Shown here one piece after another: positions 47,796 to 61,840 of a stretch of 64,000 nucleotides of DNA. Below the pieces are notes generated by a model. It was not told where the DNA came from and made no database searches. It worked only from the letters and a program-made list of their open reading frames with translations. Origin of the DNA: a virus. The DNA lies in IMG/VR virus record IMGVR_UViG_3300031952_002809, positions 57,554 through 121,553 of that record; one strand, 5' to 3'. The translations under genes were made by a program, and so were the position numbers. Position 1 is the stretch's first letter. Each line of letters opens with the position of its first letter.

Positions 47796-47819
47796 TTGTA
47801 TTCTCCATATTGTAATTGA

Positions 47820-47862
47820 ATTATACTACATCTTATAAGATTTGTCAATACCTTTTCAAAAG
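47820..47862 (-). promoter_or_regulatory. Leftward promoter P2
   Basis: Minus strand: box CTTTTGAAAAGGTA, TTGACA (47843-47848), 17 bp, TATAAT (47820-47825). The spacer contains the perfect 12-bp palindrome ATCTTATAAGAT (47830-47841). Drives the genes from 47795 to 44400. Confidence 0.88.
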
Positions 47863-47888
47863 AATTTTAAATTTATTTTAAAATTATT

Positions 47889-48185
47889 TTAAATAAGATA
47901 CTCTACTATGAGTTGTTTCGCTCTGTCTTTTCCCCATTCATTTACAAGGTATTGCATGCAGAGTTCCACTTTCTTTTTTTGTGTAGTTATGTTCTTCTTT
48001 TCAAATTCAGTTGCACTTTCATTGTGTCTTCGTATTATTCGGATTGAGCAATCGAAGTCAGGGAAGTTTGACAGGGGACATTTCTTACATAGATCGTGCA
48101 TGGTAAAATTAAAGCATGTGCTTTCGTTTGAGTTAGCTATCAGTTCTATAGCCATCTTGTCTGTGTAGTTCAGTTTCTTTCTCAT
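47889..48185 (-). CDS. Cys-family paralogue F
   Basis: 98 residues, ATGA-coupled to the gene upstream. STCFNFTMHDLCKKCPLSNF, then DFDC, gives the family's four-Cys pattern, although spacing is longer than in the others. The C-terminus MQYLVNEWGKDRAKQLIVEY plus LI matches the family tail. Last gene of the cluster; its VEYLI end does not overlap any downstream ribosome site. Probably zinc-binding; function unknown. Confidence 0.65.
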   Translation of the reverse strand: MRKKLNYTDKMAIELIANSNESTCFNFTMHDLCKKCPLSNFPDFDCSIRIIRRHNESATEFEKKNITTQKKKVELCMQYLVNEWGKDRAKQLIVEYLI

Positions 48186-48394
48186 AGCAATTCCTCCGTG
48201 AGTCGTTCTTTAGTTTCCTTTTCACCGAGTACAGATATTAGCCATTGAACAGTGAGTTCTACTTTATTATTCTTTGGTATCTTTATTGCTTTAGCACAGA
48301 TTAGTTTATGCAGTGAGCATTCTAAACAGTTTGTTTCTTTATGGCATGAACCATTGTTTTTAATGATGGCGATTGCAGACTGTATTTTATTCAT
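48182..48394 (-). CDS. Cys-family paralogue E
   Basis: 70 residues, AAGGAGAAACCAGT before the ATG. IIKNNGSCHKETNCLECSL then ICAK gives Cys at the family positions. It ends WLISVLGEKETKERLTEELL, whose last codons include GGAGG for the next gene. Predicted small zinc-binding protein. Confidence 0.68.
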   Translation of the reverse strand: MNKIQSAIAIIKNNGSCHKETNCLECSLHKLICAKAIKIPKNNKVELTVQWLISVLGEKETKERLTEELL

Positions 48395-48455
48395 ACTGGT
48401 TTCTCCTTTCGAGAGTATGTCCTACATATTGAAAAAGCAGGACATCTCCTATCAT

Positions 48456-48668
48456 TTATACAAGCATTTCGACGAGCAGTGCTTGAGTTTCTTCTTTACC
48501 GACTGCATTTATGAGATAGTGCATAGCCTGAGCTTTTATTACTTCGGGAATGCTTGTACATACATTGGGGAGAGGGCATGTTTCTTTTATACAATGTTTG
48601 TAAGGACGATTACAATGCCCGTTTTTCTTTATGATGGTAAGACATGTATCGATATGTGATGCTTTCAT
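48456..48668 (-). CDS. Cys-family paralogue D
   Basis: 70 residues, ATGA-coupled. IIKKNGHCNRPYKHC, then ETCPLPNVC, then the family end YLINAVGKEETQALLVEMLV. It is followed by a 60-nt gap, so the VEMLV end has no ribosome-site role here. Confidence 0.68.
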   Translation of the reverse strand: MKASHIDTCLTIIKKNGHCNRPYKHCIKETCPLPNVCTSIPEVIKAQAMHYLINAVGKEETQALLVEMLV

Positions 48669-48898
48669 ATGAGTACCTCCATAATCATTTCTTTTGTTTT
48701 ACTCTCTCCGTATTCATCTACCAAGTACTTAATAAGGAGAGGCTTTCTACTGTGCGGTGTTAATCTCCCTGTGCACACGGTACAACAATTTCCATTTAGA
48801 GGACAGAAGTGACAATCAACGTCAGCACAGCTACCTTCACTTTCTATTATATACAGTGCTGTTGTGGTGAGTATTCGTTTCGTTCTATATGTTTTCAT
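48665..48898 (-). CDS. Cys-family paralogue C
   Basis: 77 residues, ATGA-coupled. IIESEGSCADVDCHFCPLNG then CCTVC; six Cys in all, the richest of the family. Ends YLVDEYGESKTKEMIMEVLI, whose last codons form ATGGAGGTACTCAT, the next gene's ribosome site. Confidence 0.68.
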   Translation of the reverse strand: MKTYRTKRILTTTALYIIESEGSCADVDCHFCPLNGNCCTVCTGRLTPHSRKPLLIKYLVDEYGESKTKEMIMEVLI

Positions 48899-49146
48899 AT
48901 CAGTACCTCTATAAGTAGTTCTTTCGTTTCCTGTTCTCCATAGACTGCTATGAGATACTGGGCAAGGAGTGTTATTTTTGTGGAAGGTTTTTGGTTATAC
49001 AATATTTCTGCACAGAAATGTCTGTTGATGAAACAATCACTACAGTTTATATGTCCGCAATCGCCATTGTTTTTAATAGTGGTGATGGCATTCATTACCA
49101 TGTTATCTATTGGTGTGTGTTGAGTAAATACTTTAGCGTAGCTCAT
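48895..49146 (-). CDS. Cys-family paralogue B
   Basis: 83 residues, ATGA-coupled. ITTIKNNGDCGHINCSDCFI then FCAE, and the tail YLIAVYGEQETKELLIEVLI. Clearest statement of the family: NG-x-C, C-x2-C, a fourth Cys, and the YLI-x3-GE-x-ETKELL tail. Confidence 0.68.
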   Translation of the reverse strand: MSYAKVFTQHTPIDNMVMNAITTIKNNGDCGHINCSDCFINRHFCAEILYNQKPSTKITLLAQYLIAVYGEQETKELLIEVLI

Positions 49147-49625
49147 ATAAGAGCCTCCACTATTATTTCTTTAGCTTCCCTTTCACCGTATGTATTTATC
49201 AACCATTGAATAGCCATATCCTTATTGACATGTTCACATATACTGAGTAACCCCTTACCAAACTTATTCATATACCGCCTTTTATTATTACGTATTACTG
49301 TATGAATAGGACAATCAACACAATGTATACTTGAACAATCACCGTTATGACGGATAATAGACAGGACAATGCTCTTTTCAAAAGTACTACTATTCATTAC
49401 CTTATTGACATGCACAGTACTAGACTTATTAATTCCACTCACGTTGTTGCCCATAGAATTATTAATTCCAGACACAGTACTGATAGAATTATTAATTCCA
49501 CTCACGGTAGAATTATTAATTCCACTCACGTTACTGATAGAATTATTAATTCCACTCACGTTGTTGCCATTTTGGCTAATATTTGATCGAGCGAGAATTG
49601 TGTTTTTTTTATTTTTATTAACCAT
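49143..49625 (-). CDS. Cys-family paralogue A with VSGINNS repeat domain
   Basis: 160 residues from ATG 49625 (GGAGAAACTT upstream; an earlier in-frame ATG at 49637 overlaps it). Residues about 15-75 hold five copies of an Asn/Ser-rich unit (VSGINNS), followed by the Cys-family domain: IIRHNGDCSSIHCVDCPIH, and the tail WLINTYGEREAKEIIVEALI. First gene behind P3. The repeat domain is unique to this copy and probably variable in length. Confidence 0.68.
   Translation of the reverse strand: MVNKNKKNTILARSNISQNGNNVSGINNSISNVSGINNSTVSGINNSISTVSGINNSMGNNVSGINKSSTVHVNKVMNSSTFEKSIVLSIIRHNGDCSSIHCVDCPIHTVIRNNKRRYMNKFGKGLLSICEHVNKDMAIQWLINTYGEREAKEIIVEALI
49420..49565 (-). repeat. Tandem repeat coding VSGINNS units
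   Basis: The unit TAGAATTATTAATTCCACTC (plus strand) and close variants recurs five times at 21-33 bp spacing. Units differ slightly in length by multiples of three, so the frame is kept. Confidence 0.8.
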
Positions 49626-49645
49626 AAGTTTCTCCATATGGATGT

Positions 49646-49688
49646 ATTATACCACACGACATAAACTTTGTCAATAGCTTTTAAAAAG
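49646..49688 (-). promoter_or_regulatory. Leftward promoter P3 (Cys-family cluster)
   Basis: Minus strand: box TTTTTAAAAGCTA, TTGACA (49669-49674), 17 bp, TATAAT (49646-49651). This is the one member with no clear spacer dyad. Four palindromes lie 70-240 bp upstream. Confidence 0.88.
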
Positions 49689-49741
49689 AATATGAAAAAA
49701 ATGCTATGTTATTCACGGCGGTCGGGGCTGCGGCAGATCCA

Positions 49742-49913
49742 CGCACAAAAGTGCGCCTCGAGGTCCCGGAGATTCCTGGTTCATACGTTGCCCAAAAGTG
49801 CGACTTTCATTAATACTATTCGTGATAATACTATCGCTGGTGGACATTAGCCCGCCCGGCGCACAAAAGTGCGACTGTTCCGAGCTGCCGCGATCAAGGC
49901 GCACAAAAGTGCG
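49742..49913. repeat. Four copies of the CGCACAAAAGTGCG palindrome
   Basis: Exact at 49742-49755, 49860-49873 and 49900-49913, and degenerate (TGCCCAAAAGTGCG) at 49789-49802. They are embedded in G/C-rich DNA unlike the flanks, in the gap between a terminator (49960) and promoter P3. Confidence 0.85.
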
Positions 49914-49950
49914 GCTTCTGATCCAGGGACCATTGTTTTTAAGATGATAC

Positions 49951-49989
49951 AAAAGGAAAAACCCCGCAGGAGGTGTTTCCTGCGGGGTT
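49951..49989 (-). terminator. Intrinsic terminator of the HNH unit
   Basis: On the minus strand AACCCCGCAGGA pairs with TCCTGCGGGGTT (plus 49960-49971 and 49978-49989), 12 bp with a 6-nt loop, followed by TTTCCTTTT. Strong. Confidence 0.85.
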
Positions 49990-50011
49990 TGGTTGGGAGG
50001 TAACTACTATG

Positions 50012-50106
50012 GGTAAGTAACATCCAACATCTGTATAGTACTTTTATAGATGCTAAGTACTCGTGGTAAGTAGAGTCCAACATCTGTATAGTACTTTGGT
50101 GGATGC
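50012..50106. repeat. Two direct repeats with hairpin arms
   Basis: GGTAAGTA, 4 variable bases, CCAACATCTGTATAGTACTT, 5 variable bases, then GATGC, present at about 50012-50054 and 50064-50106. CATC and GATG in each copy can pair. On the minus strand this is downstream of the HNH gene. No start codon with ribosome site nearby. Confidence 0.7.
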
Positions 50107-50182
50107 CTTTGTTTTAAAATACCGTACCAAAATTTATATAGAATTTTTTCTAAAATTCATGTGCACAACCGACTCCTGACTC

Positions 50183-50683
50183 CTATGATTCAGGTAAGTC
50201 TTCGTGCCGCTTTCTATGGCACTTCTTACACAACCATACGACATCAAGATACTTTCCTTCCTCATACGATTCATGATGGCCCTCTGGCGTGCAGGGCTTC
50301 TCACACAAGGTGCAATGGTTTGGTCTGGTAAGAGTTCCCTTCTTTAGTGCAGAGTACACAGCATTACGTGCCGCCTTATGTGCAGGGTATCTCTTCCTTT
50401 GTATAGTTAAATACCGAGCATGATCTTTTGAGATGCCCCCCTTCCAGTTATTGTTGGCCTCTCCTTTCTTTGCCCGGCCACACATTTCACGTATAACAAG
50501 TTCATCCCGTTTAATATGGCACTTCTTACATATCTTACTGAGTGATTGAGGGGAAGCATTGAAGTGCTTGCAGAGTTCATCATTGGTCATTGTATTAATC
50601 AATGATTTGAGTTCAGTGATCTCTGTCTTTGTCCAGTGCTTCTGCCCCCGAGTTCGAATTCTCAATTCAATGCCCTCAAACAT
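50183..50683 (-). CDS. HNH endonuclease
   Basis: 166 residues. The C-terminal third has HCTLCEKPC, then GHHESYEEGKYLDVVWLCKK and CHRKRH: a zinc-stabilised HNH nuclease of the kind found in phage homing genes. The N-terminal part has a helix-turn-helix (MTNDELCKHFNASPQSLS) and KKGEANNNWKGG, a common DNA-reading motif of these enzymes. It overlaps the gene upstream by 22 nt and has a weak ribosome site. Likely a free-standing homing endonuclease. Confidence 0.88.
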   Translation of the reverse strand: MFEGIELRIRTRGQKHWTKTEITELKSLINTMTNDELCKHFNASPQSLSKICKKCHIKRDELVIREMCGRAKKGEANNNWKGGISKDHARYLTIQRKRYPAHKAARNAVYSALKKGTLTRPNHCTLCEKPCTPEGHHESYEEGKYLDVVWLCKKCHRKRHEDLPES

Positions 50684-51144
50684 TTCTGGATTGGTGCAAA
50701 CCTGATGAGCTGAGCATCGTCAATCTTGATAGAGTCACCCAGAACAATCTCATCATCTTCTCGTTCAAATTGTCTGCAGAGCATAGATGCTCCCTTGCGA
50801 GTTATCTCAATAATTTGATATACTTCCACACGATCCAGCGTGTCTCTGTAACTAGCTGTCTGCATCATTCTTTTCAGTTCTTTCTCAGTTATATCTTTCG
50901 GCATAACATAACTCCATGCCTCTGATACAATGTATACTTTGTAGATTCCTTTCTCAGGTATGTATGAACAAAGAGTAGCCACCAGCCTGTCTTTCTCTTC
51001 ATCAGATCCCATGTAATCGCTGGCATCAAATACCTCCGTGCCTGCACCGGTGCACATGAATATCACAGGTACCAGGTAGCCATCATTCTTTAGATTATGT
51101 TCAATAGTGTGCTGCAATGTTTCTAGTGAGACGTCTTCTTTCAT
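50662..51144 (-). CDS. Unknown protein
   Basis: 160 residues with AAGGAGGCACT before the ATG. Beta/alpha mixture: HNLKNDGYLVPVIFMCTG at the start, VYIVSEAWSYVMP in the middle and IIEITRKGASMLCRQFERE near the end (a possible wing-helix). Similar lone proteins occur in phages without known role. Its end overlaps the HNH start. Confidence 0.58.
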   Translation of the reverse strand: MKEDVSLETLQHTIEHNLKNDGYLVPVIFMCTGAGTEVFDASDYMGSDEEKDRLVATLCSYIPEKGIYKVYIVSEAWSYVMPKDITEKELKRMMQTASYRDTLDRVEVYQIIEITRKGASMLCRQFEREDDEIVLGDSIKIDDAQLIRFAPIQKCLRALN

Positions 51145-51153
51145 AGTGCCTCC

Positions 51154-51387
51154 TTAAATGTTATACTCAACAATGAGTTCCTTGATGATAGGTACCAATT
51201 CTTCTTTATACACTTCAAAGAGTATCCCATCTGCAGTTCCTTCGTCGTGCTTAAAATCTTGATACCACTTCCATCCAGCCTTTTGAAGTTTTTCAGTCAA
51301 TCTACGAGCAACAACAATATGCATGTCTCTTGGTGCAGGGGACAATACAAAAGAAAATATAGGGATTGACCCATGCATTTCAGTCAC
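51154..51387 (-). CDS. Small protein, GTG start, unknown
   Basis: 77 residues. GTG 51387 overlaps the stop of the zinc-ribbon gene (GTGA) and lies 6 nt after AGGAG, so it is preferred to the ATG three codons later. Mixed fold with KAGWKWYQDFKHDEG and a tail KELIVEYNI, like the C-termini of the Cys family. Unrecognised. Confidence 0.58.
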   Translation of the reverse strand: MTEMHGSIPIFSFVLSPAPRDMHIVVARRLTEKLQKAGWKWYQDFKHDEGTADGILFEVYKEELVPIIKELIVEYNI

Positions 51388-51533
51388 GCTGTGCTCCTTT
51401 TTTCCTGAAAGTCTCTTCCTTTGCAGACAGAGCAGACCTTCGGTTTTGTTGCATCCGTATCCGTATGCAACGTAATAATATGACTACATTTCTTACACAC
51501 GTATTTCTTTACAGTGGGCTGATACTTCACCAT
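51384..51533 (-). CDS. 49-residue zinc ribbon protein
   Basis: First gene behind P4; TGGAGGAACTT then ATG. VCKKC near the start and VCSVC 20 residues on form a CxxC-x19-CxxC zinc ribbon, with a basic end. Short proteins of this kind often bind DNA or RNA polymerase. Below usual ORF length limits. Confidence 0.65.
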   Translation of the reverse strand: MVKYQPTVKKYVCKKCSHIITLHTDTDATKPKVCSVCKGRDFQEKRSTA

Positions 51534-51550
51534 AAGTTCCTCCATTTCAG

Positions 51551-51595
51551 ATTATATCATATGATGTATATTCTGTCAAGCATTTTATTTAAAAG
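51551..51595 (-). promoter_or_regulatory. Leftward promoter P4
   Basis: Minus strand: TTTTAAATAAAATGC box, TTGACA (51574-51579), 17 bp, TATAAT (51551-51556). The perfect palindrome ATCATATGAT (51556-51565) overlaps the -10 edge. The upstream box is less like the others. Confidence 0.85.
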
Positions 51596-51649
51596 CTTTT
51601 AAAAAGTTTTAATTAAAAACTTGATCACTGTAAATAAAAATACAAGCAG

Positions 51650-51674
51650 GGCACCAAATTTTTAGTTTGGTGCC
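51650..51674 (-). terminator. Terminator after the lipoprotein gene
   Basis: GGCACCAAA (51650-51658) pairs with TTTGGTGCC (51666-51674), 9 bp, loop of 7, followed on the minus strand by CTGCTTGTATTTTTATTT. Confidence 0.75.
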
Positions 51675-51688
51675 AAGCTTCTATTCTC

Positions 51689-52552
51689 TTACTGAAATAC
51701 GAAAGTAAAGGGTAATGTAATTGTTTCTGGAAGTCCCAGGTCAGTCCGACTGATAGCTTCATACTCATATCCAGTCATCGAGCTGGGGTCGTTTGAGCAT
51801 GCACCATTCGCCCCAGAAGATTCGTAGTAGTAGCTCTGGTATGACATCGAAGCTGTTGTCGTGGACTTACGTTTGTAAAACTGATTCTTAATTTTGTTGT
51901 ACATAACCTTGCCAATCGCAGCTTCACTTAGAATCTCATGCCTCACCCGAACTGTTCCAGTGCAGCCAGTACCTGAATAAAAAATAGGTATGTCCCCTGC
52001 TAAACTGTTGTAATGAATCTCAGTAGCATCACCACTATCAACAACACTGAATCCTACAAGAAATCCTGTTGATGTAAACAGATGATCGCTTCCAAGAGCG
52101 TAGCCAAGATAGTTCGAATTCGCATCAATGATTTTAACATAGCGGCCTTGCACCAAGATCACCCACGTACTTCCATTATAAATGTAACTATTTCCAGTCA
52201 CAGTATTGAAGTATGCTTGATTGAGTGATGGGCTTGCCGGATCACTATCGAATGAACCAAGCCATTGAATTGAAACACCATTGCTTCCATTAGAACCAGC
52301 AACACCATCCTGTGCAATCAACCGCCATGCTGTGCCATCACAGAAGTATCCAGCACCATTCGTAGTATTACGATAGGCATCATACTCATGTGTCGCGTCA
52401 CAAGCATAAGGCTCTGCGCCATAGTCACCAATCCATTCGAACCGAAGGCTATCCGGTTCACCAACCACAGATGTTGTCACCCCACCAGGAACTGCTGTGT
52501 CATCACATGCTACCCATGTGAGCACCACTAAGAGAAAGAGAAGTTTCTTCAT
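51689..52552 (-). CDS. Phage lipoprotein sharing a module with the collagen-like fibre
   Basis: 287 residues from ATG 52552 (GGAGGTACATAGT upstream). Signal peptide KKLLFLLVVLTWVAC, with Cys 16 as a likely lipidation site (Trp at -3 is unusual), then DD, which would favour inner-membrane retention in E. coli but not necessarily elsewhere. Residues about 95-140 repeat the fibre module (WLGSFDSDP, LNQAYFNT, NSYIYNGSTW). A degenerate first copy lies before it (WIGDYGAEP to WRLIAQDG). The rest is beta-rich with a GxGC Cys and a CSNDP Cys. I infer a surface or periplasmic protein made early; superinfection exclusion is one idea. Confidence 0.75.
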   Translation of the reverse strand: MKKLLFLLVVLTWVACDDTAVPGGVTTSVVGEPDSLRFEWIGDYGAEPYACDATHEYDAYRNTTNGAGYFCDGTAWRLIAQDGVAGSNGSNGVSIQWLGSFDSDPASPSLNQAYFNTVTGNSYIYNGSTWVILVQGRYVKIIDANSNYLGYALGSDHLFTSTGFLVGFSVVDSGDATEIHYNSLAGDIPIFYSGTGCTGTVRVRHEILSEAAIGKVMYNKIKNQFYKRKSTTTASMSYQSYYYESSGANGACSNDPSSMTGYEYEAISRTDLGLPETITLPFTFVFQ

Positions 52553-52618
52553 ACTATGTACCTCCATACATTGTAATTAGGTCACGACTGCCTTGCACGC
52601 AAAGCAGTCTAAAAGTAA

Positions 52619-52981
52619 TTACACAAGCTCCTCGAAGAGCGCATCTCTTGATATCTCTTTGCCACGTTCAAAGGGAAACACTGTTTCACCAAGAACGTAG
52701 AACCATTCTCCCCTGTTCTTCCGTACAACCACAGGAGAATACCGATTGATACGTTCGCTTGACAGCTTTGTCCACCAGCCGCCGTTATCAAGTATCCAGC
52801 GGTTACCAGGAAGCACTGACACGATGTCAGTGTTCCATAAGCGAACATGATACGACTCACCGTCGAAGTACAGGTATGTATTCTTGGCCAGCTTCTTTGC
52901 TTTGCAGCCATCAACCACTGCCCTGCCCTTCTTAATCATCTCAGAACACTTTTCATACGTTAAACAATTCTCGTTAAACAT
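52619..52981 (-). CDS. Small beta-rich protein, unknown
   Basis: 120 residues, ACGGAGGTAACTT then ATG. Short helical start (CLTYEKCSEMIKKGRAV), then beta strands rich in Trp (WNTDIVSVLPGNRWILDNGG). Ends FEELV, the recurring tail, although the next gene has its own ribosome site well away. Unrecognised. Confidence 0.6.
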   Translation of the reverse strand: MFNENCLTYEKCSEMIKKGRAVVDGCKAKKLAKNTYLYFDGESYHVRLWNTDIVSVLPGNRWILDNGGWWTKLSSERINRYSPVVVRKNRGEWFYVLGETVFPFERGKEISRDALFEELV

Positions 52982-52984
52982 AAG

Positions 52985-53260
52985 TTACCTCCGTAGTAAA
53001 CTTGATCTGACTCGAATTGCCGAGCCATCATACCTTGAGCATAAGTCCACCAGCTCTTTAGGTATCATGGTTACAGTAATTTCTACTGATACGTTTCGAT
53101 GTGTAAATGAACCAACCAAATTGATCGATGCAGAAATTTCCCTTGACGAGATTGACAGTCCCGTGATGTTATGCACCACGTCAGCAATCAATTCCACTGT
53201 TGGATAGATTCCAATGAAAGGAGCTATCAAGGGATTGTTGTTAATATATATTCCGTACAT
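52985..53260 (-). CDS. Small protein, unknown
   Basis: 91 residues from ATG 53260, 8 nt after GAGGG; a GTG five codons upstream overlaps that site. Amphipathic beta strands dominate (VEITVTMIPKELVDL, SAIRVRSSLLRR), with one helix in the middle. Unrecognised. Confidence 0.55.
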   Translation of the reverse strand: MYGIYINNNPLIAPFIGIYPTVELIADVVHNITGLSISSREISASINLVGSFTHRNVSVEITVTMIPKELVDLCSRYDGSAIRVRSSLLRR

Positions 53261-53280
53261 GTATGTAACCCTCACTCTAC

Positions 53281-53307
53281 AGGGCAGGGGAGTGATTCCC
53301 CTGCCCT
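53281..53307 (-). terminator. Stable hairpin between genes
   Basis: AGGGCAGGGGA (53281-53291) pairs with TCCCCTGCCCT (53297-53307), 11 bp. No T run follows on the minus strand, so it is more likely an RNA-stabilising or attenuating hairpin than a full terminator. Confidence 0.6.
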
Positions 53308-53313
53308 CTGACT

Positions 53314-53961
53314 TTACTTAGGATCACCGCTATACTTGATGAGCTCATTCACACGAGCCACATCATTCTTTTCGTAGCACAGCCGACATTCATTACAACT
53401 CTTTGCACAGTTGATCTTGATGTCAGCATGTTCACGAATGAATGGCCTTGAGTAGACACTGAATGCCTTATCAAAACCCTTTGGGAGTTTCGGCTTGAGC
53501 TCATTCAATCTGAGTGTTGAGAATACATGAATGAGATTCTTAAGCCTGATCAGACCGCCGTCACGAACGACTGCAAGATGCTTTGTCCACAAGGTAAACA
53601 TTGTTCTCGGGTTCGCTTCTGCAATCTTTACAAGATTCTTGTAGTGAACCCGATTGATTAGCTCACCGTGTGCAGAATACCTGAACACTTGCTGATTGAT
53701 GATAGGAAGCTCCCTATCTTTCAGCACGTTCTCTGACAGCACATGGTAATTGTTTACCCATGCAGTATGGCAGTTGACCTGCATCTTTTCCTTGCTCTTT
53801 GTGTAGCACGACTTGCAGATCACACCAGCACATTCACGCATCTTAAGACAGAATGGATTGATGTTTGCCGATGTGTTCAGTGACCACATCCCTTCCATCT
53901 TTCCACTCATCTCGTTTGTGATTCCGAATGATTGACCATTGAGAAGCGCACAGTGAATCAT
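53314..53961 (-). CDS. Cys-rich gp88-like phage protein
   Basis: 215 residues, ATGGAGGTAGCTTATG start. N-terminal SLNTSANINPFCLKMRECAG, then VICKSCYTKSKEK, and C-terminal INCAKSCNECRLCYEKN supply about eight Cys in CxxC-type pairs. Between them are KNLVKIAEANPRTMFTLWTK and RYSAHGELINR. This is the pattern of phage gp88-type proteins, which look like metal or Fe-S binding enzymes of unknown reaction (possibly radical chemistry). First gene behind P5. Confidence 0.72.
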   Translation of the reverse strand: MIHCALLNGQSFGITNEMSGKMEGMWSLNTSANINPFCLKMRECAGVICKSCYTKSKEKMQVNCHTAWVNNYHVLSENVLKDRELPIINQQVFRYSAHGELINRVHYKNLVKIAEANPRTMFTLWTKHLAVVRDGGLIRLKNLIHVFSTLRLNELKPKLPKGFDKAFSVYSRPFIREHADIKINCAKSCNECRLCYEKNDVARVNELIKYSGDPK

Positions 53962-53985
53962 AAGCTACCTCCATAACCTAGACGT

Positions 53986-54026
53986 ATTGTATCACAAAAA
54001 TTGTGATTTGTCAATAGCTTTTGAAA
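53986..54026 (-). promoter_or_regulatory. Leftward promoter P5
   Basis: Minus strand: TTTTCAAAAGCTA box, TTGACA (54009-54014), 17 bp, TACAAT (53986-53991). The spacer is filled by a perfect dyad, ATCACAA-AAA-TTGTGAT (53991-54007), similar in style to P8 and P9. Confidence 0.85.
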
Positions 54027-54060
54027 ATAAAATAAAATAAAATAATGGCGAGGGGGGAAA

Positions 54061-54495
54061 TTATTCCCCCAGTAATTTGTGAGTAACAACCTCCGCTAAC
54101 TCAGCACATCCATTAGTTTCTTCCAGATAGACTTCAACCAATTCTTGAATGTCTTCTTTATTAAGTGGCAAAACTTTTGTGATGTAGAGTGTCCAGTAGT
54201 CATTGCCACTAATCATAAAAGCATCACAGAACGCAGCCTTTACTTTTTTCTTCTTTGCGAACGCTTCCATTATTTCAAGGAATACTTCTTGCTCATTGTC
54301 CCGCAAAGATTCTTCAATGAAACTTTGAAACTTCTTCTCTGCAGACATCCCTTTAAATTCTTCCTTCATGTCATCACAGAATTCTTTGAAGTCATTCTTG
54401 TAAAGGCTCTTTGCAATCTTACGAAGCTCTTGATCTTCAAGAAACTCATCGAGTCCACTAGTTGTCCATGAGCAAGCATTTTGTACTGTCAACAT
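54061..54495 (-). CDS. Acidic helical protein, unknown
   Basis: 144 residues from ATG 54495 (AAGGAGGGCCT upstream); an in-frame ATG at 54555 would run through a palindrome. Helical and Glu/Lys-rich (KNDFKEFCDDMKEEFKGMS, EVFLEIMEAFAKKKKVK). Last gene of the P6 unit. Unrecognised. Confidence 0.58.
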   Translation of the reverse strand: MLTVQNACSWTTSGLDEFLEDQELRKIAKSLYKNDFKEFCDDMKEEFKGMSAEKKFQSFIEESLRDNEQEVFLEIMEAFAKKKKVKAAFCDAFMISGNDYWTLYITKVLPLNKEDIQELVEVYLEETNGCAELAEVVTHKLLGE

Positions 54496-54521
54496 AGGCC
54501 CTCCTTCCCCGGCGCCCGCGC

Positions 54522-54535
54522 CGCACAAAAGTGCG
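54522..54535. repeat. CGCACAAAAGTGCG palindrome ahead of a start codon
   Basis: Exact copy 27 nt upstream of the 54495 start on the minus strand, within an operon and inside a short G/C-rich patch. Confidence 0.85.
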
Positions 54536-54551
54536 ACACTGCACCAGGATT

Positions 54552-54875
54552 TCAAATTCTTTCTTCTACTATCTTACTCTGTATAAACTGCTGACCTTCC
54601 TCAGTCAGTCTATACAAAACTCGATACTTGTAGTAGTTGTAGTTTCTTTTACCACAACCAAGCTTGCGAACATTTCTCCAATACTGTGAACATATTGCTG
54701 GGAACGTTTCAGTTCCTTGTGTTCCACTGAATGTTACCTTGAGAAGATCACCAGTAGTAACATTGTGGGTATTTGAATAATCATATTCGGCCACAACGTA
54801 TTGCTTCTGGTTAAGCTCTTCAAGAAAGTCTCCGTCCCATTCAGGAAACGTTGCGATTCTTTTAACTCGTAGCAT
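54552..54875 (-). CDS. Small protein with LTEEG winged-helix-like end
   Basis: 107 residues, ATGGAGGTAACGTATG start. Beta-rich first half (VVAEYDYSNT, DLLKVTFSGTQGT); the end YRVLYRLTEEGQQFIQSKIV resembles YKHYRLTEAGLQYCKEQI in the gene at 61901, so the two are related at their C-termini. LTxxG is common in winged-helix DNA-binding proteins. Function unknown. Confidence 0.6.
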   Translation of the reverse strand: MLRVKRIATFPEWDGDFLEELNQKQYVVAEYDYSNTHNVTTGDLLKVTFSGTQGTETFPAICSQYWRNVRKLGCGKRNYNYYKYRVLYRLTEEGQQFIQSKIVEERI

Positions 54876-54928
54876 ACGTTACCTCCATTGACCTGTCTCA
54901 TCAGTTGCAGTAGGTCATCTCTGCAAGA

Positions 54929-54944
54929 GCATCCCGAAGGATGC
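54929..54944 (-). other. UUCG-loop hairpin downstream of a zinc ribbon gene
   Basis: GCATCC and GGATGC (54929-54934, 54939-54944) enclose CGAA, which reads UUCG on the minus-strand RNA, an extra-stable loop. No T run. Confidence 0.55.
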
Positions 54945-54950
54945 TTTCGA

Positions 54951-55103
54951 CTAGATGTCTTCTGACTTGTACGGGGAGATGTGCCTCATGCCGCAGTGAG
55001 GACAGTCATCATCACATGTACTGTCCCACTCATCCTCCCATTCAGTCTCACATTGAGGGCAGCGATAGAAGTTACGAAACCTGAGCTCCACTTCCTTTGA
55101 CAT
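54951..55103 (-). CDS. 50-residue zinc ribbon protein
   Basis: Start overlaps the stop of the gene upstream (TGATG) after GGAGGTAAG. FYRCPQCETEWEDEW then CDDDCPHCGMRH gives two CxxC pairs, a zinc ribbon with an acidic middle. Related short phage proteins are common; role unknown. Confidence 0.7.
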   Translation of the reverse strand: MSKEVELRFRNFYRCPQCETEWEDEWDSTCDDDCPHCGMRHISPYKSEDI

Positions 55104-55732
55104 CACTTACCTCCATCAAGCTTGTGATCGATAACCTCTTTCAAGGGATCGTCGAGATAGTCATTAACAATGCGAGTGACTCGACCAGCATCGGCATCAT
55201 CCAGATAGAATGATACACGCCGCCTCTCACTCACGACATTGTTTACAATCTCAATCTGTCCGGCATCTTCATCATCCTCACCTTGCCATGTGACTGTACC
55301 ATTCAGTTTGTAGCCACGAGGATCGAGAACCTTTTCTATCAAGTACTTGATCCACTCAACATACTTATAGAATTTTTCACCGCCGTCCCATTCGATTGTT
55401 TGCTTGTCCTCTTGAATAGACCATTGACACCACAATCCTGGTTGAGTCTTTGGTGGTGTGTTGTAGTCGATGATGTCCTGTGTGTGACTTTGCCCACTGT
55501 CCCCAGAATCACCAATCCAAAACTCACCTTCCACACCAAATTCTTTCTCCCATTGAGCGGCAATCTCTTTCGTCACTCTCTTAACCTTGCCGACATACAC
55601 ACGACGACCGAGCTTGCGAATGTCACGTTGCATCCTCCGAGTAGATGCAAGACCATGCAATAAATTGTAGGTCTCATCATCCACTGGCTTATCCACCCTG
55701 AAATACCCATTGAACGTGGTTGAATATCCCAT
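55103..55732 (-). CDS. Conserved phage protein (MGYSTTFNG family)
   Basis: 209 residues, GGGAGGTAATAAAGC before the ATG. It has the start MGYSTTFNGYFRVDKPVD, then RRMQRDIRKLG, GEFWIGDSG, PGLWCQWSIQEDKQTIEWDG and EKFYKYVEWIKYLIEKVL, which I recognise as a widespread phage hypothetical family of about this length. The reaction is unknown; it lacks obvious catalytic motifs. Confidence 0.75.
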   Translation of the reverse strand: MGYSTTFNGYFRVDKPVDDETYNLLHGLASTRRMQRDIRKLGRRVYVGKVKRVTKEIAAQWEKEFGVEGEFWIGDSGDSGQSHTQDIIDYNTPPKTQPGLWCQWSIQEDKQTIEWDGGEKFYKYVEWIKYLIEKVLDPRGYKLNGTVTWQGEDDEDAGQIEIVNNVVSERRRVSFYLDDADAGRVTRIVNDYLDDPLKEVIDHKLDGGK

Positions 55733-55760
55733 GCTTTATTACCTCCCAGTAATTAGGATA

Positions 55761-55786
55761 AAAAGTTGCCCTTGAGATCAAGGGCA
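55761..55786 (-). terminator. Terminator after the 55801 gene
   Basis: TGCCCTT (55767-55773) pairs with AAGGGCA (55780-55786), followed by ACTTTTTATCC on the minus strand. The stem can extend inward. It divides the P6 unit and may be leaky, as no promoter follows before 55732. Confidence 0.65.
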
Positions 55787-55800
55787 GTAATTTATCCCAA

Positions 55801-56013
55801 CTAAATCAGCTCTGCCATTGCATCAGCTTTGTGCGTCGGGTCATCTTGCAAAGCCAATGTTGCAAAGATTGTCAGACACTTGCCACATATAATGTAGATG
55901 TGCCTGTTCTTTACAAGGTGCAGATACTTTGTCCCACGCGGGACAGGCACTCCACAGTGGTCACATGCTCGACCAATTGTTTGTGCTGTCACCAATTCCG
56001 TATAACCTTTCAT
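55801..56013 (-). CDS. Small zinc-binding protein
   Basis: 70 residues, ATGGAGGTAACAGTATG start, first behind P6. RACDHCGVPVPRGTKYLHL and IICGKCLTIF form a CxxC-x27-CxxC zinc ribbon. Ends MAELI. Possibly DNA- or polymerase-binding. Confidence 0.62.
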   Translation of the reverse strand: MKGYTELVTAQTIGRACDHCGVPVPRGTKYLHLVKNRHIYIICGKCLTIFATLALQDDPTHKADAMAELI

Positions 56014-56039
56014 ACTGTTACCTCCATGTCTATTAATGT

Positions 56040-56082
56040 AGTATACCGCACTTTTGTGCGTTTGTCAATAGCTTTTTAAAAG
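56040..56082 (-). promoter_or_regulatory. Leftward promoter P6 with the 14-bp palindrome as spacer
   Basis: Minus strand: CTTTTAAAAAGCTA box, TTGACA (56063-56068), 17 bp, TATACT (56040-56045). The spacer contains CGCAC-AAAA-GTGCG (56047-56060), the same palindrome found in other gaps. A protein bound there would block polymerase, so it looks like an operator. Confidence 0.88.
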
Positions 56083-56100
56083 ATTTTTATAAATAATTGC

Positions 56101-56134
56101 AAAAAAAAGTAAAGCCCCCGTTTCCGAGGGCTTT
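56101..56134 (-). terminator. Terminator with GAAA loop
   Basis: AAAGCCCTCG, GAAA, CGGGGGCTTT on the minus strand (plus 56111-56134), then ACTTTTTTTT. It ends the P7 unit just before P6. Confidence 0.85.
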
Positions 56135-56400
56135 TAAAGGAAGAGATCGAACACTGTCCCACGTTGTTGTGGTGTTTTGGCCAGTTCCTCAAAATCTGGT
56201 TTGTCTAAGGAAAATACTCCGAAGGCAGCCCATCCAGAAATATTGTTTCGTATTATTTCTGGAAGCTTCACTACAACTTCTCTCACTGCTGTTTTCCATC
56301 GAGTGCTTTGGCAATGTTGTATGAATGTTTCTTCATTACCTAACGAGTTTGTATAAAAGATATACACCATATAATTGTATACATCTACATACTTTTTCAT
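56134..56400 (-). CDS. Small protein, unknown
   Basis: 88 residues, ATGA-coupled to the zinc-finger gene upstream, whose last codons hold GGAGGAACT. Mixed fold with KYVDVYNYMVYIFY at the start and EVVVKLPEIIRN in the middle. Unrecognised. Confidence 0.55.
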   Translation of the reverse strand: MKKYVDVYNYMVYIFYTNSLGNEETFIQHCQSTRWKTAVREVVVKLPEIIRNNISGWAAFGVFSLDKPDFEELAKTPQQRGTVFDLFL

Positions 56401-56777
56401 ACTAGTTCCTCCAGCAGTATCTCTTTGAGTTGTGGATCACTTAAAGGAATGCCCCATGCTGCATGGATGTCTATACTAGCAGGAATTGTGTTATACTTTT
56501 CACGCCACAGCTTAATAAGTTCTTCTGCTCGCCTGATTTGTACAACTACCTGCTTGAGTACCGAAGTTCCCTCTCCTTCATGTGTTGTATTTCCGCATAA
56601 AGGGCAGACATACGCATCAAAGTTTTCCTCACTGAACTCATCACTGAACTCCTCACTTACGTACACCCCATACTTATCCAGATTTGTACTGGCGTACAAG
56701 TAGTACCTCTTGTCAGGTTTCATCAGCAGTATCTTGCAATCGGGACAGATGTACAGATACATTGTTTTTTCTTTCAT
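56397..56777 (-). CDS. Zinc-binding protein with two CxxC pairs
   Basis: 126 residues, AAGGAGGTAACG then ATG. YICPDCKILLM and, 40 residues on, YVCPLCGNTTHEG form a zinc ribbon around an acidic segment (EEFSDEFSEENFD). A helical second half follows (QIRRAEELIKLWREKYN). Ends ILLEELV, whose codons contain the GGAGGAACT for the next gene. Function unknown. Confidence 0.65.
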   Translation of the reverse strand: MKEKTMYLYICPDCKILLMKPDKRYYLYASTNLDKYGVYVSEEFSDEFSEENFDAYVCPLCGNTTHEGEGTSVLKQVVVQIRRAEELIKLWREKYNTIPASIDIHAAWGIPLSDPQLKEILLEELV

Positions 56778-56802
56778 CGTTACCTCCTTATTTTAAAATA
56801 AT

Positions 56803-56837
56803 GAAAAAGAAATTGTGTGAAGTTTTTTCACACAATT
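56803..56837 (-). terminator. Intrinsic terminator after the 56868 gene
   Basis: AATTGTGTGAA (56811-56821) pairs with TTCACACAATT (56827-56837), followed by TTCTTTTTC on the minus strand. It is read before 56777, which has no promoter of its own, so some read-through is expected. Confidence 0.75.
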
Positions 56838-56867
56838 CAGTGTTAATGTTGTGCCGACTCCCTTCCC

Positions 56868-57575: not shown

Positions 57576-57599
57576 ACCGTCACCTCCATTAACTTATTT

Positions 57600-57640
57600 A
57601 TTATACCATACTTTTAAAAGATTGTCAATAGCTTTTGAAA
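57600..57640 (-). promoter_or_regulatory. Leftward promoter P7
   Basis: Minus strand: TTTCAAAAGCTA box, TTGACA (57623-57628), 17 bp, TATAAT (57600-57605). The spacer contains CTTTTAAAAG (57611-57620). Two CGCAC-AAAA-GTGCG palindromes lie 60-130 bp upstream. Confidence 0.88.
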
Positions 57641-57685
57641 TATTATTTGAAATACTACTGGAGTGAATAATACAGCAGTAGGACA

Positions 57686-57760
57686 CGCACAAAAGTGCGA
57701 CTATAGGTCCGCCAAAATCCGCCAAGATCCCTGGATCTGGGGCGCACAAAAGTGCGCCCC
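57686..57760. repeat. Two CGCACAAAAGTGCG palindromes upstream of P7
   Basis: Exact at 57686-57699 and 57743-57756. The second extends to 9-bp arms (GGGGCGCAC/GTGCGCCCC, 57739-57760) and sits 7 nt behind a leftward stop codon, where it could also act as an RNA hairpin. G/C-rich surroundings (TCCGCCAAAATCCGCCAAG). Confidence 0.85.
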
Positions 57761-57767
57761 ATGCCTG

Positions 57768-58292
57768 CTAGATGAGCTGTTCAACCTTGTCTTCTTTCGT
57801 GCCAGCATACTGAATCTTTACAGTAGTCCCTGTTGGAATGTCGTGGCATGATACTCGTGCTGTGACTGTGAGTGTCTCACAGGTAAGTACTTCGGCATAG
57901 AAGTCACTGCCGTGCATGGCAAAGGTTTCACGTATGAAACTTTGTGCCGTGCCGTTGTAGACAAACCGTCTACTTCCTCCATGCCCCTGCCATCCAATCT
58001 GACCAACCATGTAAAGCATAGGGTCACCTTCGGCGAACCCTGCCTTGTCCAGTAGCTCTTGCAAGAAGCTAACCGTGCTATCCCAATAATTCTGATACAT
58101 TCCAGTGTCGCCACTGAAGTACTGCATGATTAACTCTTCTTGCTGTTCTTTGCTTAGCTCATACTCTTCATCCTCACCAATACCTTTCTCTTCCTTGAAT
58201 TCCTTGATGAATTCGGGATAGCTATCCTCCACAAAATCAAAGTCTACAAGGTCAAGAATAGAAACGTTTGTGTCGATCCTGAGCAAGATCAT
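57768..58292 (-). CDS. Unknown acidic protein
   Basis: 174 residues from ATG 58292 (TTGGAGGTAACATAT upstream); longer in-frame starts would run through three hairpins. Acidic helices (FVEDSYPEFIKEFKEEKGIG) are followed by a beta-rich part (QIGWQGHGGSRRFVYNGT, SFIRETFAM). Ends DKVEQLI. Its mRNA from P8 must pass the hairpins at 58345-58461, so attenuation is likely. Confidence 0.6.
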   Translation of the reverse strand: MILLRIDTNVSILDLVDFDFVEDSYPEFIKEFKEEKGIGEDEEYELSKEQQEELIMQYFSGDTGMYQNYWDSTVSFLQELLDKAGFAEGDPMLYMVGQIGWQGHGGSRRFVYNGTAQSFIRETFAMHGSDFYAEVLTCETLTVTARVSCHDIPTGTTVKIQYAGTKEDKVEQLI

Positions 58293-58344
58293 ATATGTTA
58301 CCTCCAATAATTGTATTCTGTTTCCAAACCCCTTATTTGAAAAG

Positions 58345-58461
58345 AACCCCGAAGGAGTTACCCTTCGGGGTTTTAGTTGGAGTTTGGAAGTAACTTTAAA
58401 ACAATGCTTACATTCGGTGGCTGTAAGCGGCCTCGTGAAGCAAGACAAGTGATTGTCTTGC
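58345..58461 (-). terminator. Three consecutive hairpins, the last a terminator
   Basis: In minus-strand order: GCAAGACAA/TTGTCTTGC (58440-58461), GCTTACA/TGTAAGC (58406-58428), and AACCCCGAAGG/CCTTCGGGGTT (58345-58372) followed by CTTTTC. They lie between two genes with no promoter between, a layout typical of attenuation or RNA processing. Confidence 0.75.
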
Positions 58462-58473
58462 CCCATGAAACCG

Positions 58474-59085
58474 TTACGATGCTTGTTCAAACAGAGTGTC
58501 ATTGATAAGGAGTGCTGTGCCTATCTCCTTACCTTCAGGAAGGACAGTAGCAACAAATGTGAAAGCTTCTGTCCAATCATCCATGTCCCCATCAGAGCTG
58601 ATTGAAACATAAGGGAAGTAATGTTTGTACAGGATGAGACATGCTTGCACCATGAGATCATATGGCTTGCGAGCAGTCTTGCAAAATTGAAAGTACATGA
58701 CTTCTTCTTTTCTATGGTCACGTTGTTTCGGTACTTTTCGTGTCAGTCCAAAAGTTTCATGCCCGAGATCATTAAGACTCTCATCATGTGACTTTGCATC
58801 CAGCCATTCGATGTGCTTGCATCCTTTGTCACAAGAGATGTATCGTTTGATCCTCTTCAATCCATTGGAGCCATTAAACAAGACACGACTCATTGTGAAT
58901 TTAGGTTTTTCATACTTGAAACAACCCGATAAAAACAATGGTTCGTTGCCAGCGTAATCACCAGAGCTGTGTGAATGTTCCGGCATGTTCTTGTACAATG
59001 CTTTACAGTCGTCAATGAAACGTCTCCATGTTTCCATATCATGGTCAACCTTCACTGGTCTGTAATAATATTGTGTGTATCCCAT
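58474..59085 (-). CDS. Conserved phage protein (MGYTQYY family)
   Basis: 203 residues, GGAGGTAACTTATG start behind P8. It has MGYTQYYYRPVKV, then HETFGLTRK, FCKTARKPYDLMVQACL and VSISSDGDMDDW, which I recognise as a widespread phage hypothetical family. Function unknown; no catalytic motif evident. Confidence 0.78.
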   Translation of the reverse strand: MGYTQYYYRPVKVDHDMETWRRFIDDCKALYKNMPEHSHSSGDYAGNEPLFLSGCFKYEKPKFTMSRVLFNGSNGLKRIKRYISCDKGCKHIEWLDAKSHDESLNDLGHETFGLTRKVPKQRDHRKEEVMYFQFCKTARKPYDLMVQACLILYKHYFPYVSISSDGDMDDWTEAFTFVATVLPEGKEIGTALLINDTLFEQAS

Positions 59086-59107
59086 AAGTTACCTCCACAT
59101 ACTTTGT

Positions 59108-59150
59108 ATTATAGCACACTTTCATGTGCTTGTCAATAGCTTTTTAAAAG
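59108..59150 (-). promoter_or_regulatory. Leftward promoter P8
   Basis: Minus strand: CTTTTAAAAAGCTA box, TTGACA (59131-59136), 17 bp, TATAAT (59108-59113). The spacer is a dyad AGCACA-n6-TGTGCT (59113-59130), the same arms as in P9, suggesting shared control of both units. Confidence 0.9.
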
Positions 59151-59175
59151 TTATTGTTTAAAGTATCAGAAGTGT

Positions 59176-59190
59176 CCCTCCGAAGAGGGG
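59176..59190 (-). terminator. UUCG-loop hairpin after the VWA gene
   Basis: CCCTC and GAGGG enclose UUCG on the minus-strand RNA. No long T run; it probably marks the 3' end of the MoxR/VWA mRNA. Confidence 0.5.
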
Positions 59191-59198
59191 CGTATCTG

Positions 59199-60572
59199 CT
59201 AATCTAAACAGACAACCTTCCGAGACCATGCAGGCATGTTCTCTTTCGGGCAGTGACCACCAGACAGGACAAAGATTGTCTCGATGCCTGGCCTCTTGTC
59301 AGGGAACGCGCTGTATCCATCAGTGAAGGACACCAGAAGGTTTGTGTTCCACTTCCTTCTGTTCTTCTCGATGTGTTCATACAGTGGGATGTGACTCGTG
59401 CCACCTCCACCATGAATCTGTAACTGCTTGATCTTATTGACATGCCCATTGTAAATCGGGATGTCATCATGCACGTCAGTATCATGAGTGAGGACACGAA
59501 ACTCCACGTTCGAGAAAGACTTTGAGATACCAATCATTTCTGATATGTATGCTTCAAGGTCTTTCTGACTGATCGAACCCGACGTATCGATGGAGCATAT
59601 TACTCGAATCGATTCGCCATAAATACTCGGCATGTAAATGTCATGGCACGAATACTTTTTGTTCGGTCGGCGATACGTGTAGTCATACGGCAGGAAGGAT
59701 GCAATGGTCTTGCGGAGAAGTGTTCTCCAGTTGACCTTCGGTGCATGAAGTTCCTCAAAGTATCTGTCGAACCCTGCTGGACTCTTGCCAATCATCTTGG
59801 CATGGTTGAAAGCTTCCGCAACAACCTTGTCCCAATCAACATTCGGCACACCTTCTCCTTCCTTGTCACCTGCACCACCTTGCCCTTCTCCTTCTTCCTT
59901 GTCACCATCCTTGCCTTTTCCCTCGCCCTCTTCTTCACCAACACCATCCTTGATGTGCTGATCAAACGATCCAGCTTTGCCACTAGACTCATACTCATCA
60001 CCCTGATCGCCTCCACCTTGCCCCGACTGGCCTTGTCCCTGACCTCCCTGTCCCTTCACCTTCTTTGCACCATTCTTTTCCAGACCGGCCAGAAGTTCTT
60101 CGTAAATCTCCTCGGCACTTTTGATGTCCAGATTATCAATGGTAACATTGAAGACTACGACACTATTTCCTGAAGGGATGATCCCTTCCGGCGGAAGTTC
60201 TAAACCATTCTGCACCAACAAATAATTGTTGGCGATATCAATGGCTACATTCCACAATGAACCGCCGTTGACCAGAATGTTTCTATGTCCCTGCCGTTGA
60301 AAGTGTCGGAGCGCGGGATGCTGCACCTCATGGCATAGAACGCCCATGAGTTGCGCCTCAGGAAGTTTGTCCACAAAGGTTTTATTGTAGTAACAATTAC
60401 CTTTGATGTCCACGCCCATTGTTTGCACTTGAGGAGTATTAACTTCTTTAAACCTCAAGTGTTCTACGATGTACGCAAAGAATGGAAACGATTTGTTGAG
60501 CTTGATTTTCGCCTTTGACAATCTGTCTTCCGTTGTCAGTTCGGCGAAGAAGATGTTTGTTTTGTCGATCAT
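59199..60572 (-). CDS. VWA-domain protein with N-terminal metallopeptidase-like region (DUF2201 type)
   Basis: 457 residues, ATGGAGGTAACTTATG start. The N-terminal region has LMGVLCHEVQHPALRH (HExxH near 81-85), as in DUF2201 putative metallopeptidases. A Gly/Lys/Glu-rich low-complexity linker (about 180-255) follows. The C-terminal part is a von Willebrand A-like domain with a MIDAS motif (SIDTSGSIS, near 328) and HGGGGTSHIPLYEHI. Such proteins pair with MoxR AAA+ ATPases, whose gene is directly upstream; together they act as a chaperone-like machine for metal or complex insertion. The target in phage is unknown. Confidence 0.88.
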   Translation of the reverse strand: MIDKTNIFFAELTTEDRLSKAKIKLNKSFPFFAYIVEHLRFKEVNTPQVQTMGVDIKGNCYYNKTFVDKLPEAQLMGVLCHEVQHPALRHFQRQGHRNILVNGGSLWNVAIDIANNYLLVQNGLELPPEGIIPSGNSVVVFNVTIDNLDIKSAEEIYEELLAGLEKNGAKKVKGQGGQGQGQSGQGGGDQGDEYESSGKAGSFDQHIKDGVGEEEGEGKGKDGDKEEGEGQGGAGDKEGEGVPNVDWDKVVAEAFNHAKMIGKSPAGFDRYFEELHAPKVNWRTLLRKTIASFLPYDYTYRRPNKKYSCHDIYMPSIYGESIRVICSIDTSGSISQKDLEAYISEMIGISKSFSNVEFRVLTHDTDVHDDIPIYNGHVNKIKQLQIHGGGGTSHIPLYEHIEKNRRKWNTNLLVSFTDGYSAFPDKRPGIETIFVLSGGHCPKENMPAWSRKVVCLD

Positions 60573-60605
60573 AAGTTACCTCCATAACATTTTAATCGGA
60601 CATAG

Positions 60606-60636
60606 GAGTACACAAGTTTGATGTCCTTGTGTACTC
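60606..60636 (-). other. Strong hairpin between MoxR and VWA genes
   Basis: GAGTACACAAG (60606-60616) pairs with CTTGTGTACTC (60626-60636), 11 bp, loop of 9, no T run. It may set the ratio of the two proteins by protecting or attenuating the mRNA. Confidence 0.65.
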
Positions 60637-60645
60637 TATCTTCGA

Positions 60646-61776
60646 TCAAATCAGAAGCGGGAAAATACTGTCAGCAAGCTTGGTAAACTTGTCAGGAGCA
60701 TTCTTCTTTACCTTTGTAAAGAAGTCTTTGTCCATGTGCTTCGCTTGGTTCAGAAGCATGCAGGTATGTTCCTTATTGAATACCAAAGACAGGTCTAACA
60801 GTCTGACTGCATTTTCAGCAGTCGATTTTTCTGAGTAGTGACCGACGAAGGCACTAATCAGGGAGTAAAGCTGGTCAACTTGTGTTGGCTTTTCAAACTT
60901 ACCGCTTGTAAATATCTTGGTGATATCATACTTCTTTGAAAGCTTGATCCAAGCTACCATTTCCTGCGCAATCCCAGTGCCCACGCCCATGCCTATGTAA
61001 CGATACAGCAAATCTTCTGCTGTATCAGGTATCCCCTTGATAAGAGTGGATACTTTGTCCCACATTCTTGGCGTGGCAATTGTCGGTTCGCACACATCCT
61101 TGGTCGGATCGTATGTAAACAAGTGCTTCTTTTGATACATGAGATAGTTGACAATCCTATGGTCAACACCAGAAGGGATTGCATAATCATTCGCCCATCC
61201 CCGTATCTTCTCACCACTCACCTCGATGTCATCGACTGGTGGAACAAGAAGTTCTGCATGTAAGAACCTGTTGTTCAAAGGCATCGCCATGTCGAACGTA
61301 TGACCACGATCATCGTCCCTGTTTCCTGCACCGAGTATCATTACTCCGTCAGGAACACGATAGAAACCAAGTCGCCGATCTTCAATCAATTGGTACGCAT
61401 TCGATTGAAGCATCGGAGGAGCAAGGTTTATTTCATCCAGAAGGACGACACCTTGTCCTTTGGTAGGCAGAAGACCGACTGGAAGATACACAGTCTGTGT
61501 GCGGTCAGCGTTCGGAAAAGGCAGTCCCTTTATTTCTGCTGGTTCGTATTGATGCAATGGCAACACTAAGAACATGAATTTCTTTTCGTTGTTTACATCA
61601 GCGAAGTCCTGAGAAAATTCGAGACCGAGTTCCTTGGCTTTACGCATCGCAAACCGTCTTACCGCTTCGGTTTTTCCGATACCAAATGTCCCTGTCAACA
61701 TGACTGCCAATTTAGTCGGCAAAGAATACATCCTGTCAAGAACCGATTGAAACTGTGCGTGATACAAACTAATCAT
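60646..61776 (-). CDS. MoxR-type AAA+ ATPase
   Basis: 376 residues, GGAGGTAACTTATG start behind P9. Walker A LTGTFGIGKT (27-36), Walker B GVVLLDEINLAPP (Asp-Glu near 114-115), sensor 1 LGAGNRDDDRG (Asn near 152), then PLNNRFLHAEL (arginine-finger region), all typical of MoxR. It is followed by the VWA/HExxH protein, its usual partner. MoxR proteins act as ATP-driven remodelling chaperones. Length and motif order are normal. Confidence 0.9.
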   Translation of the reverse strand: MISLYHAQFQSVLDRMYSLPTKLAVMLTGTFGIGKTEAVRRFAMRKAKELGLEFSQDFADVNNEKKFMFLVLPLHQYEPAEIKGLPFPNADRTQTVYLPVGLLPTKGQGVVLLDEINLAPPMLQSNAYQLIEDRRLGFYRVPDGVMILGAGNRDDDRGHTFDMAMPLNNRFLHAELLVPPVDDIEVSGEKIRGWANDYAIPSGVDHRIVNYLMYQKKHLFTYDPTKDVCEPTIATPRMWDKVSTLIKGIPDTAEDLLYRYIGMGVGTGIAQEMVAWIKLSKKYDITKIFTSGKFEKPTQVDQLYSLISAFVGHYSEKSTAENAVRLLDLSLVFNKEHTCMLLNQAKHMDKDFFTKVKKNAPDKFTKLADSIFPLLI

Positions 61777-61799
61777 AAGTTACCTCCAATAACTTTTGT

Positions 61800-61840
61800 A
61801 GTATAGCACATATTATTGTGCTTGTCAATACCTTTTGAAA
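61800..61840 (-). promoter_or_regulatory. Leftward promoter P9 (MoxR/VWA unit)
   Basis: Minus strand: TTTCAAAAGGTA box, TTGACA (61823-61828), 17 bp, TATACT (61800-61805). Spacer dyad AGCACA-n6-TGTGCT (61805-61822), identical in arms to P8. Confidence 0.9.

Follow-up and report, generated by a model that had tools for sequence, protein, structure and literature searches.

Spacer dyads in the leftward early promoters of a large phage fragment: excess over chance and possible roles

The early region and its promoters

Nine minus-strand promoters (P1-P9) serve the early genes of the viral DNA analyzed here, and most of their spacers hold an inverted repeat (dyad) that usually differs from promoter to promoter. 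The locus thus raises the question of whether this symmetry exceeds what composition and promoter consensus yield, and whether the dyads could be operators. The window, i.e. the whole 64,000-nucleotide stretch under analysis, spans positions 57554-121553 of a virus record 121,553 bp long and forms the right half of a 121.5-kb fragment. The capsid protein is 61-77% identical to capsids of IMG/VR contigs up to 253 kb and 36% identical to that of Virus Rctr197k, and this likeness to large-phage contigs identifies the record as a piece of a large tailed phage.

The early region occupies the right 20 kb of the window and consists of small leftward genes, whose products include a MoxR-like ATPase, a VWA/metallopeptidase-like protein, an ArdC-like anti-restriction protein and a HerA-like helicase; many are without a match. 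A series of small, seemingly paralogous proteins sharing a cysteine pattern like C-x4-C-x2-C-P-x5-C was observed at 46137-49637 on the minus strand (starts at 46137, 47889, 48182, 48456, 48665, 48895 and 49143), for which a convincing family match is absent. Many unlike early proteins at 47889-56777 (minus strand) share a similar C-terminal tail, E-x-L-I/V/L, with the variants EVLI, EALI, EELL, EELV, AELI and EYLI. Five imperfect repeats of about 30 nt at 49421-49568, inside the 49143 gene, encode repeated VSGINNS-type peptides, and two tandem 53-nt repeats (81% alike) at 50001-50106 adjoin a terminator at 49959-49990. In an Rfam scan, no match reached a family's gathering score.

All nine promoters fit TTGACA-17-TATAAT at 11-12 of 12 positions, with a spacer of exactly 17 bp in each. 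An UP element of T-tract/A-tract type is common to them, with 67% pairwise identity over 20 bp. TRTG precedes the -10 element in 7/9 (P2 and P6 are without it), compared with 46% of 466 control promoters. Gram-positive extended -10 promoters carry TRTG from -17 to -14, and the class also has UP elements (PMC2613000). By sequence, the nine early promoters are assigned to the housekeeping-sigma class, mostly of this type. The class fits here and its TRTG accounts for the recurring GTG beside the -10 element, but it does not predict a complementary CAC arm near -35, which is present here.

A relative carrying the same early promoters was not found in the searches performed: a near-identity phage search and two viral-contig protein searches with the large early proteins were empty, and alignments of the HerA-like and GP88-like proteins yielded no close relative of the early region. 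The capsid relatives examined (G003, G006-G009 and G012) have promoters that differ in type (TTGAC[ATG]...TATATT), few of which hold a spacer dyad. In G008, a long inverted repeat links the -10 region of a promoter at 208755 (L169, about 8755, minus strand) to the stretch immediately downstream (AACTAATGTATA...TATACATTAGTT). In the left half of the record, a promoter-like site that belongs to a different type (TTGACT-17-TATATT; L008:8145-8173, plus strand) likewise has a spacer dyad, TACACC-n5-GGTGTA. Searches of an open-access library turned up no account of early promoters whose spacers each hold a different dyad.

Spacer dyads and their excess over chance

For each promoter, the longest perfect dyad within the spacer ±2 bp was determined and is given as arm/loop. 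All nine promoters are on the minus strand. The longest arms were found in P5 (53986..54014), where ATCACAA-n3-TTGTGAT (7/3, 53991-54007) fills nearly the whole spacer. P8 (59108..59136) and P9 (61800..61828) both contain AGCACA-n6-TGTGCT (6/6, at 59113-59130 and 61805-61822) with identical arms and a different loop. The dyad of P6 (56040..56068) is CGCAC-AAAA-GTGCG (5/4, 56047-56060). P2 (47820..47848), P4 (51551..51579) and P7 (57600..57628) hold A/T-rich, weak dyads, namely ATCTTATAAGAT (6/0, 47830-47841), ATCATATGAT (5/0, 51556-51565, overlapping the extended -10) and CTTTTAAAAG (5/0, 57611-57620), respectively. The P2, P5 and P7 dyads occur once in the record; that of P4 has one extra copy, far to the left. 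The P3 spacer (49646..49674) is without a dyad (a trivial arm of 3), with four P6-type sites, one of them degenerate, 68-240 bp upstream. In P1 (44332..44360), which falls outside the 47820-61828 range of the preliminary description, the spacer AACTACAAGAAATGTGG has a perfect dyad of just 3/5 (44340-44350) and an imperfect one, ACTACA-n5-TGTGGT.

The preliminary description counted a dyad in eight of nine spacers. A perfect dyad whose arms reach 5 bp or more is present in 7/9 (P2 and P4-P9), and the count does not extend to P1 and P3; the weak ACA-n5-TGT of P1 is reached by 73% of shuffles. Dyad position, arm and loop differ among the promoters, and N4-type hairpin promoters were dropped as an explanation since the hairpin geometry is not constant.

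The arm lengths summed over the nine spacers, 46 in total, served as the joint statistic. Mononucleotide shuffling gave 26.3 ± 4.0 and dinucleotide shuffling 31.7 ± 3.4, and 46 was reached in 0/20,000 and 0/5,000 trials, respectively, so the shuffle check proposed at the outset came out in favor of the dyads. When only spacer positions 1-12 were shuffled and the extended -10 was kept fixed, the sum was 27.6 (0/20,000 reached 46), and exchange of left and right halves among promoters gave 35.1 (p 0.0004). For single spacers, mononucleotide shuffles showed P5, P6, P8, P9 and P2 to be unlikely (p 0.005-0.04), none of them compellingly, while P4 (0.15) and P7 (0.17) do not stand out.

Arms of at least 5 bp were found in 19% of 103 phage promoters of the same type, in 12% of 310 other phage promoters and in 8/102 Clostridia promoters with the same TGTGC element. 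The most telling control was natural, with promoters of the same consensus in other phage contigs: across 41 other loci holding 4-19 of them each, 41/389 spacers (10.5%) have such an arm; the best locus reached 2/5, compared with 7/9 here (p about 4e-6, or 3e-5 when P8 and P9 are counted once). Along the aligned promoters, a 21-nt frame gave dyad peaks at the spacer and the A/T-rich UP element only. The latter peak, just upstream of -35, was rejected as a second operator, as it is the T-tract/A-tract of the UP element. Among intergenic 21-mers of the early region, 22% also have arms of at least 5 bp. The dyad observation had been chosen post hoc in the preliminary description. The dyad set is not a product of chance: two-fold symmetry exceeds chance for the set as a whole, not for P1, P3, P4 or P7 singly.

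Shared themes and repeated dyads

P5, P6, P8 and P9 had been described as variants of one theme, xCAC...GTGx. The right arm TGTG(A/C/G)T of P5, P8 and P9, and imperfectly that of P1, consists of the extended -10 together with the T that opens the -10 element; what needs explaining is the complementary left arm beside -35. CACA at spacer positions 3-6 or 4-7 occurs in 0/118 natural TGTG promoters versus 3/5 here. Spacer positions 1-12 are only 37% identical between promoters, similar to the 36% below the -10 element, yet they are complementary to their own 3' half. Where P5 has A following TGTG and T as its partner, P8/P9 have C and G, so both partners change together, indicating that the symmetry is preserved though the sequence differs. 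The CAC-to-GTG spacing is 7 in P5, 4 in P6 and 8 in P8 and P9, and the different geometry of P6 (CAC-n4-GTG) means that P5, P6 and P8/P9 cannot share one rigid operator. The theme holds in part: it is largely an extended -10 TGTG with a complementary left arm, without common spacing.

A search for the P8/P9 arrangement returned 3 viral and 19 bacterial matches. In the 19 bacterial contigs it precedes unrelated genes, tRNA genes among them, and its numbers can be accounted for without selection. The 17-bp spacer accounts for the 6-bp loop and the extended -10 for TGTGC, so that only GCACA is left to explain. Among about 107 TGTGC promoters in 196 Clostridia genomes, GCACA is found in none but the centre genome, itself picked for having GCACA; no enrichment is claimed, as column frequencies give P = 0.0007. 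The P8/P9 dyad was rejected as a widespread operator, its bacterial occurrences being explained without enrichment and defining no regulon.

The 14-mer of the P6 spacer, CGCACAAAAGTGCG, recurs exactly at six intergenic sites, where far fewer than one is expected. A cluster at 49742..49913 upstream of P3 contains exact copies at 49742, 49860 and 49900 and a degenerate one at 49789; another copy (54522..54535) lies in a short intergenic gap within the P6 unit, and two (57686 and 57743, in 57686..57756) are upstream of P7. All intergenic copies are in one orientation (plus strand) and most are upstream of P3 and P7. The P6 spacer copy lies exactly between -35 and -10 in the opposite orientation, which is set by the AAAA centre only, CGCACAAAAGTGCG being palindromic elsewhere. 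A further search of the early region covered dyads whose arms of 5-6 bp hold two or more G or C, to see which recur with the same arm and loop. Besides three apparently incidental pairs, only the P6 dyad CGCAC-n4 (7 copies) and the P8/P9 dyad AGCACA-n6 (2 copies) are repeated, and these are the only repeated dyads sited in promoters, which supports sequence-specific recognition.

Seven CGCACAAAAGTGCG elements (six exact) are situated in GC-rich intergenic stretches of an otherwise A/T-rich genome, at 49690-49940, 54500-54540 and 57680-57760; the longest stretch had no match in 50,697 phage records. The operators and stoperators of mycobacteriophage L5 (PMC9283540) likewise combine one promoter site with many intergenic copies in one orientation. 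Each L5 site is an asymmetric 13-mer to which a monomer binds (PMC9283540), whereas the P6-type 14-mers are near-perfect palindromes and the P6 copy is reversed. The P6-type elements were therefore rejected as L5-type stoperators, and an L5-type repressor was absent among the family hits shown.

Probable operators and rival explanations

The spacer dyads probably are repressor operators, which is the best explanation of their excess, whereas the repressors named for them in the preliminary description lack a significant family or fold match. Host RNA polymerase would read the nine leftward early units from near-consensus housekeeping-sigma promoters, and in most units the 17-bp spacer would have acquired two-fold symmetry and would serve a dimeric DNA-binding protein as its operator. 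A dimer bound between the -35 and -10 sigma contacts would keep the polymerase off. Protein binding, repression and separate regulators are all predicted from sequence, and more than one specificity would be expected: one for P8 and P9, one for P6 and the intergenic sites near P3 and P7, one each for P5 and P2, and possibly others for P4 and P7. P8 and P9 would then be regulated jointly, P6 in step with anything that acts at the intergenic copies, and P5 and P2 independently. Against the operator reading, so many distinct operators would demand a large number of regulators from a single phage.

The two candidates were named as ribbon-helix-helix (RHH) repressors by pattern only and are plausible at most. 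One, of 63 aa (42011..42202, minus strand), is encoded near the end of the P1 unit; its helix-helix model has moderate confidence (mean pLDDT 71), and Pfam, PHROG and PDB-fold (Foldseek, E 0.001) searches gave no significant match (Pfam RelB-like, E 0.064). A weak homologue in G008 (22% identity, E 0.011) is the first gene behind a promoter, at the head of its unit. The other, of 71 aa (2917..3132, plus strand), is next to a sigma-like gene; its strand-helix-helix model has low confidence (pLDDT 58), the same searches (Foldseek, E 0.001) were without a significant match, and its homologues occur in G003 and G008, whose promoters lack such dyads. At 2427-3132 (plus strand), a weak HTH/sigma-factor-like protein is followed directly by the 2917 product, both with counterparts in relatives. 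A repressor search over 51 early and 49 other proteins identified none, the sole clear RHH gene being one for a 51-aa protein in a replication gene cluster outside the window (L010:15388-15543, plus strand; record 55388-55543). This protein scored above cut-off for Pfam RHH_1 and NikA-like, and its counterparts in G003, G008 and G009 have the same neighboring gene and a conserved strand Q-x-Y-x-T. It is no obvious partner of the dyads, as relatives share the gene without having them.

That the dyads mostly reflect composition and promoter consensus, with A/T-rich spacers and TGTG yielding dyads from which a lucky set was picked, is unlikely. This account agrees with the lack of dyads in P1 and P3, with P4 and P7 being singly within chance, with the intergenic 21-mers, with the identity of the extended -10 and the right arms of P5, P8 and P9, and with the P8/P9 arrangement before unrelated bacterial genes, where selection is not needed. 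However, nulls preserving composition and the extended -10 never or rarely matched the observed sum, the 7/9 seen here is not approached by any other phage locus with several promoters, and the six further exact copies of the P6 14-mer stand against it.

It is quite improbable that the dyads are operators of host repressors, through which each early unit would answer to the state of the host. Such operators are expected to differ, as the dyads do, and a phage repressor was not found among the proteins scanned; the P8/P9 arrangement in bacterial genomes, however, precedes unrelated genes and defines no regulon. Least probable is that the P6-type 14-mer is a dispersed repeat or an RNA hairpin (stoperator-like, processing or boundary) with an incidental copy in the P6 spacer. 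Its six intergenic copies in one orientation within GC-rich stretches would suit this, as would the folding of 49700-49940, which is better than that of shuffles (z -2.7). On the other side, the P6 copy is placed exactly, and reversed, between -35 and -10, and transcripts of the preceding unit would meet its strong terminator (49959-49990) before the copies above P3, so that action as RNA there requires read-through.

The operator reading has parallels in known systems. Arc/Mnt-type RHH operators of phage P22 are promoter sites bound by small dimeric proteins, with one operator type and a known repressor. A symmetric operator-like element between -35 and -10 is likewise seen here, but with several unrelated dyads and a putative repressor. 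The autoregulated operators of toxin-antitoxin and plasmid copG-type genes are also short inverted repeats within a promoter, and there the same unit encodes the small RHH or HTH regulator; here an RHH-like protein is encoded in the P1 unit alone, and the P1 dyad is the weakest.

A more specific version is tentative and on the whole doubtful: a set of similar host-type promoters may have had its spacers diversified into orthogonal operators, each unit or pair having its own small repressor for unit-by-unit shut-off. If this were true, P8/P9 and P6 with the intergenic sites would be two regulons. The strong early promoters that large phages carry are commonly regarded as free of regulation; mostly symmetric, mutually different spacers would imply that repression of the early genes is finely divided, and such promoters could provide several independent strong, repressible promoters for Gram-positive-type hosts.
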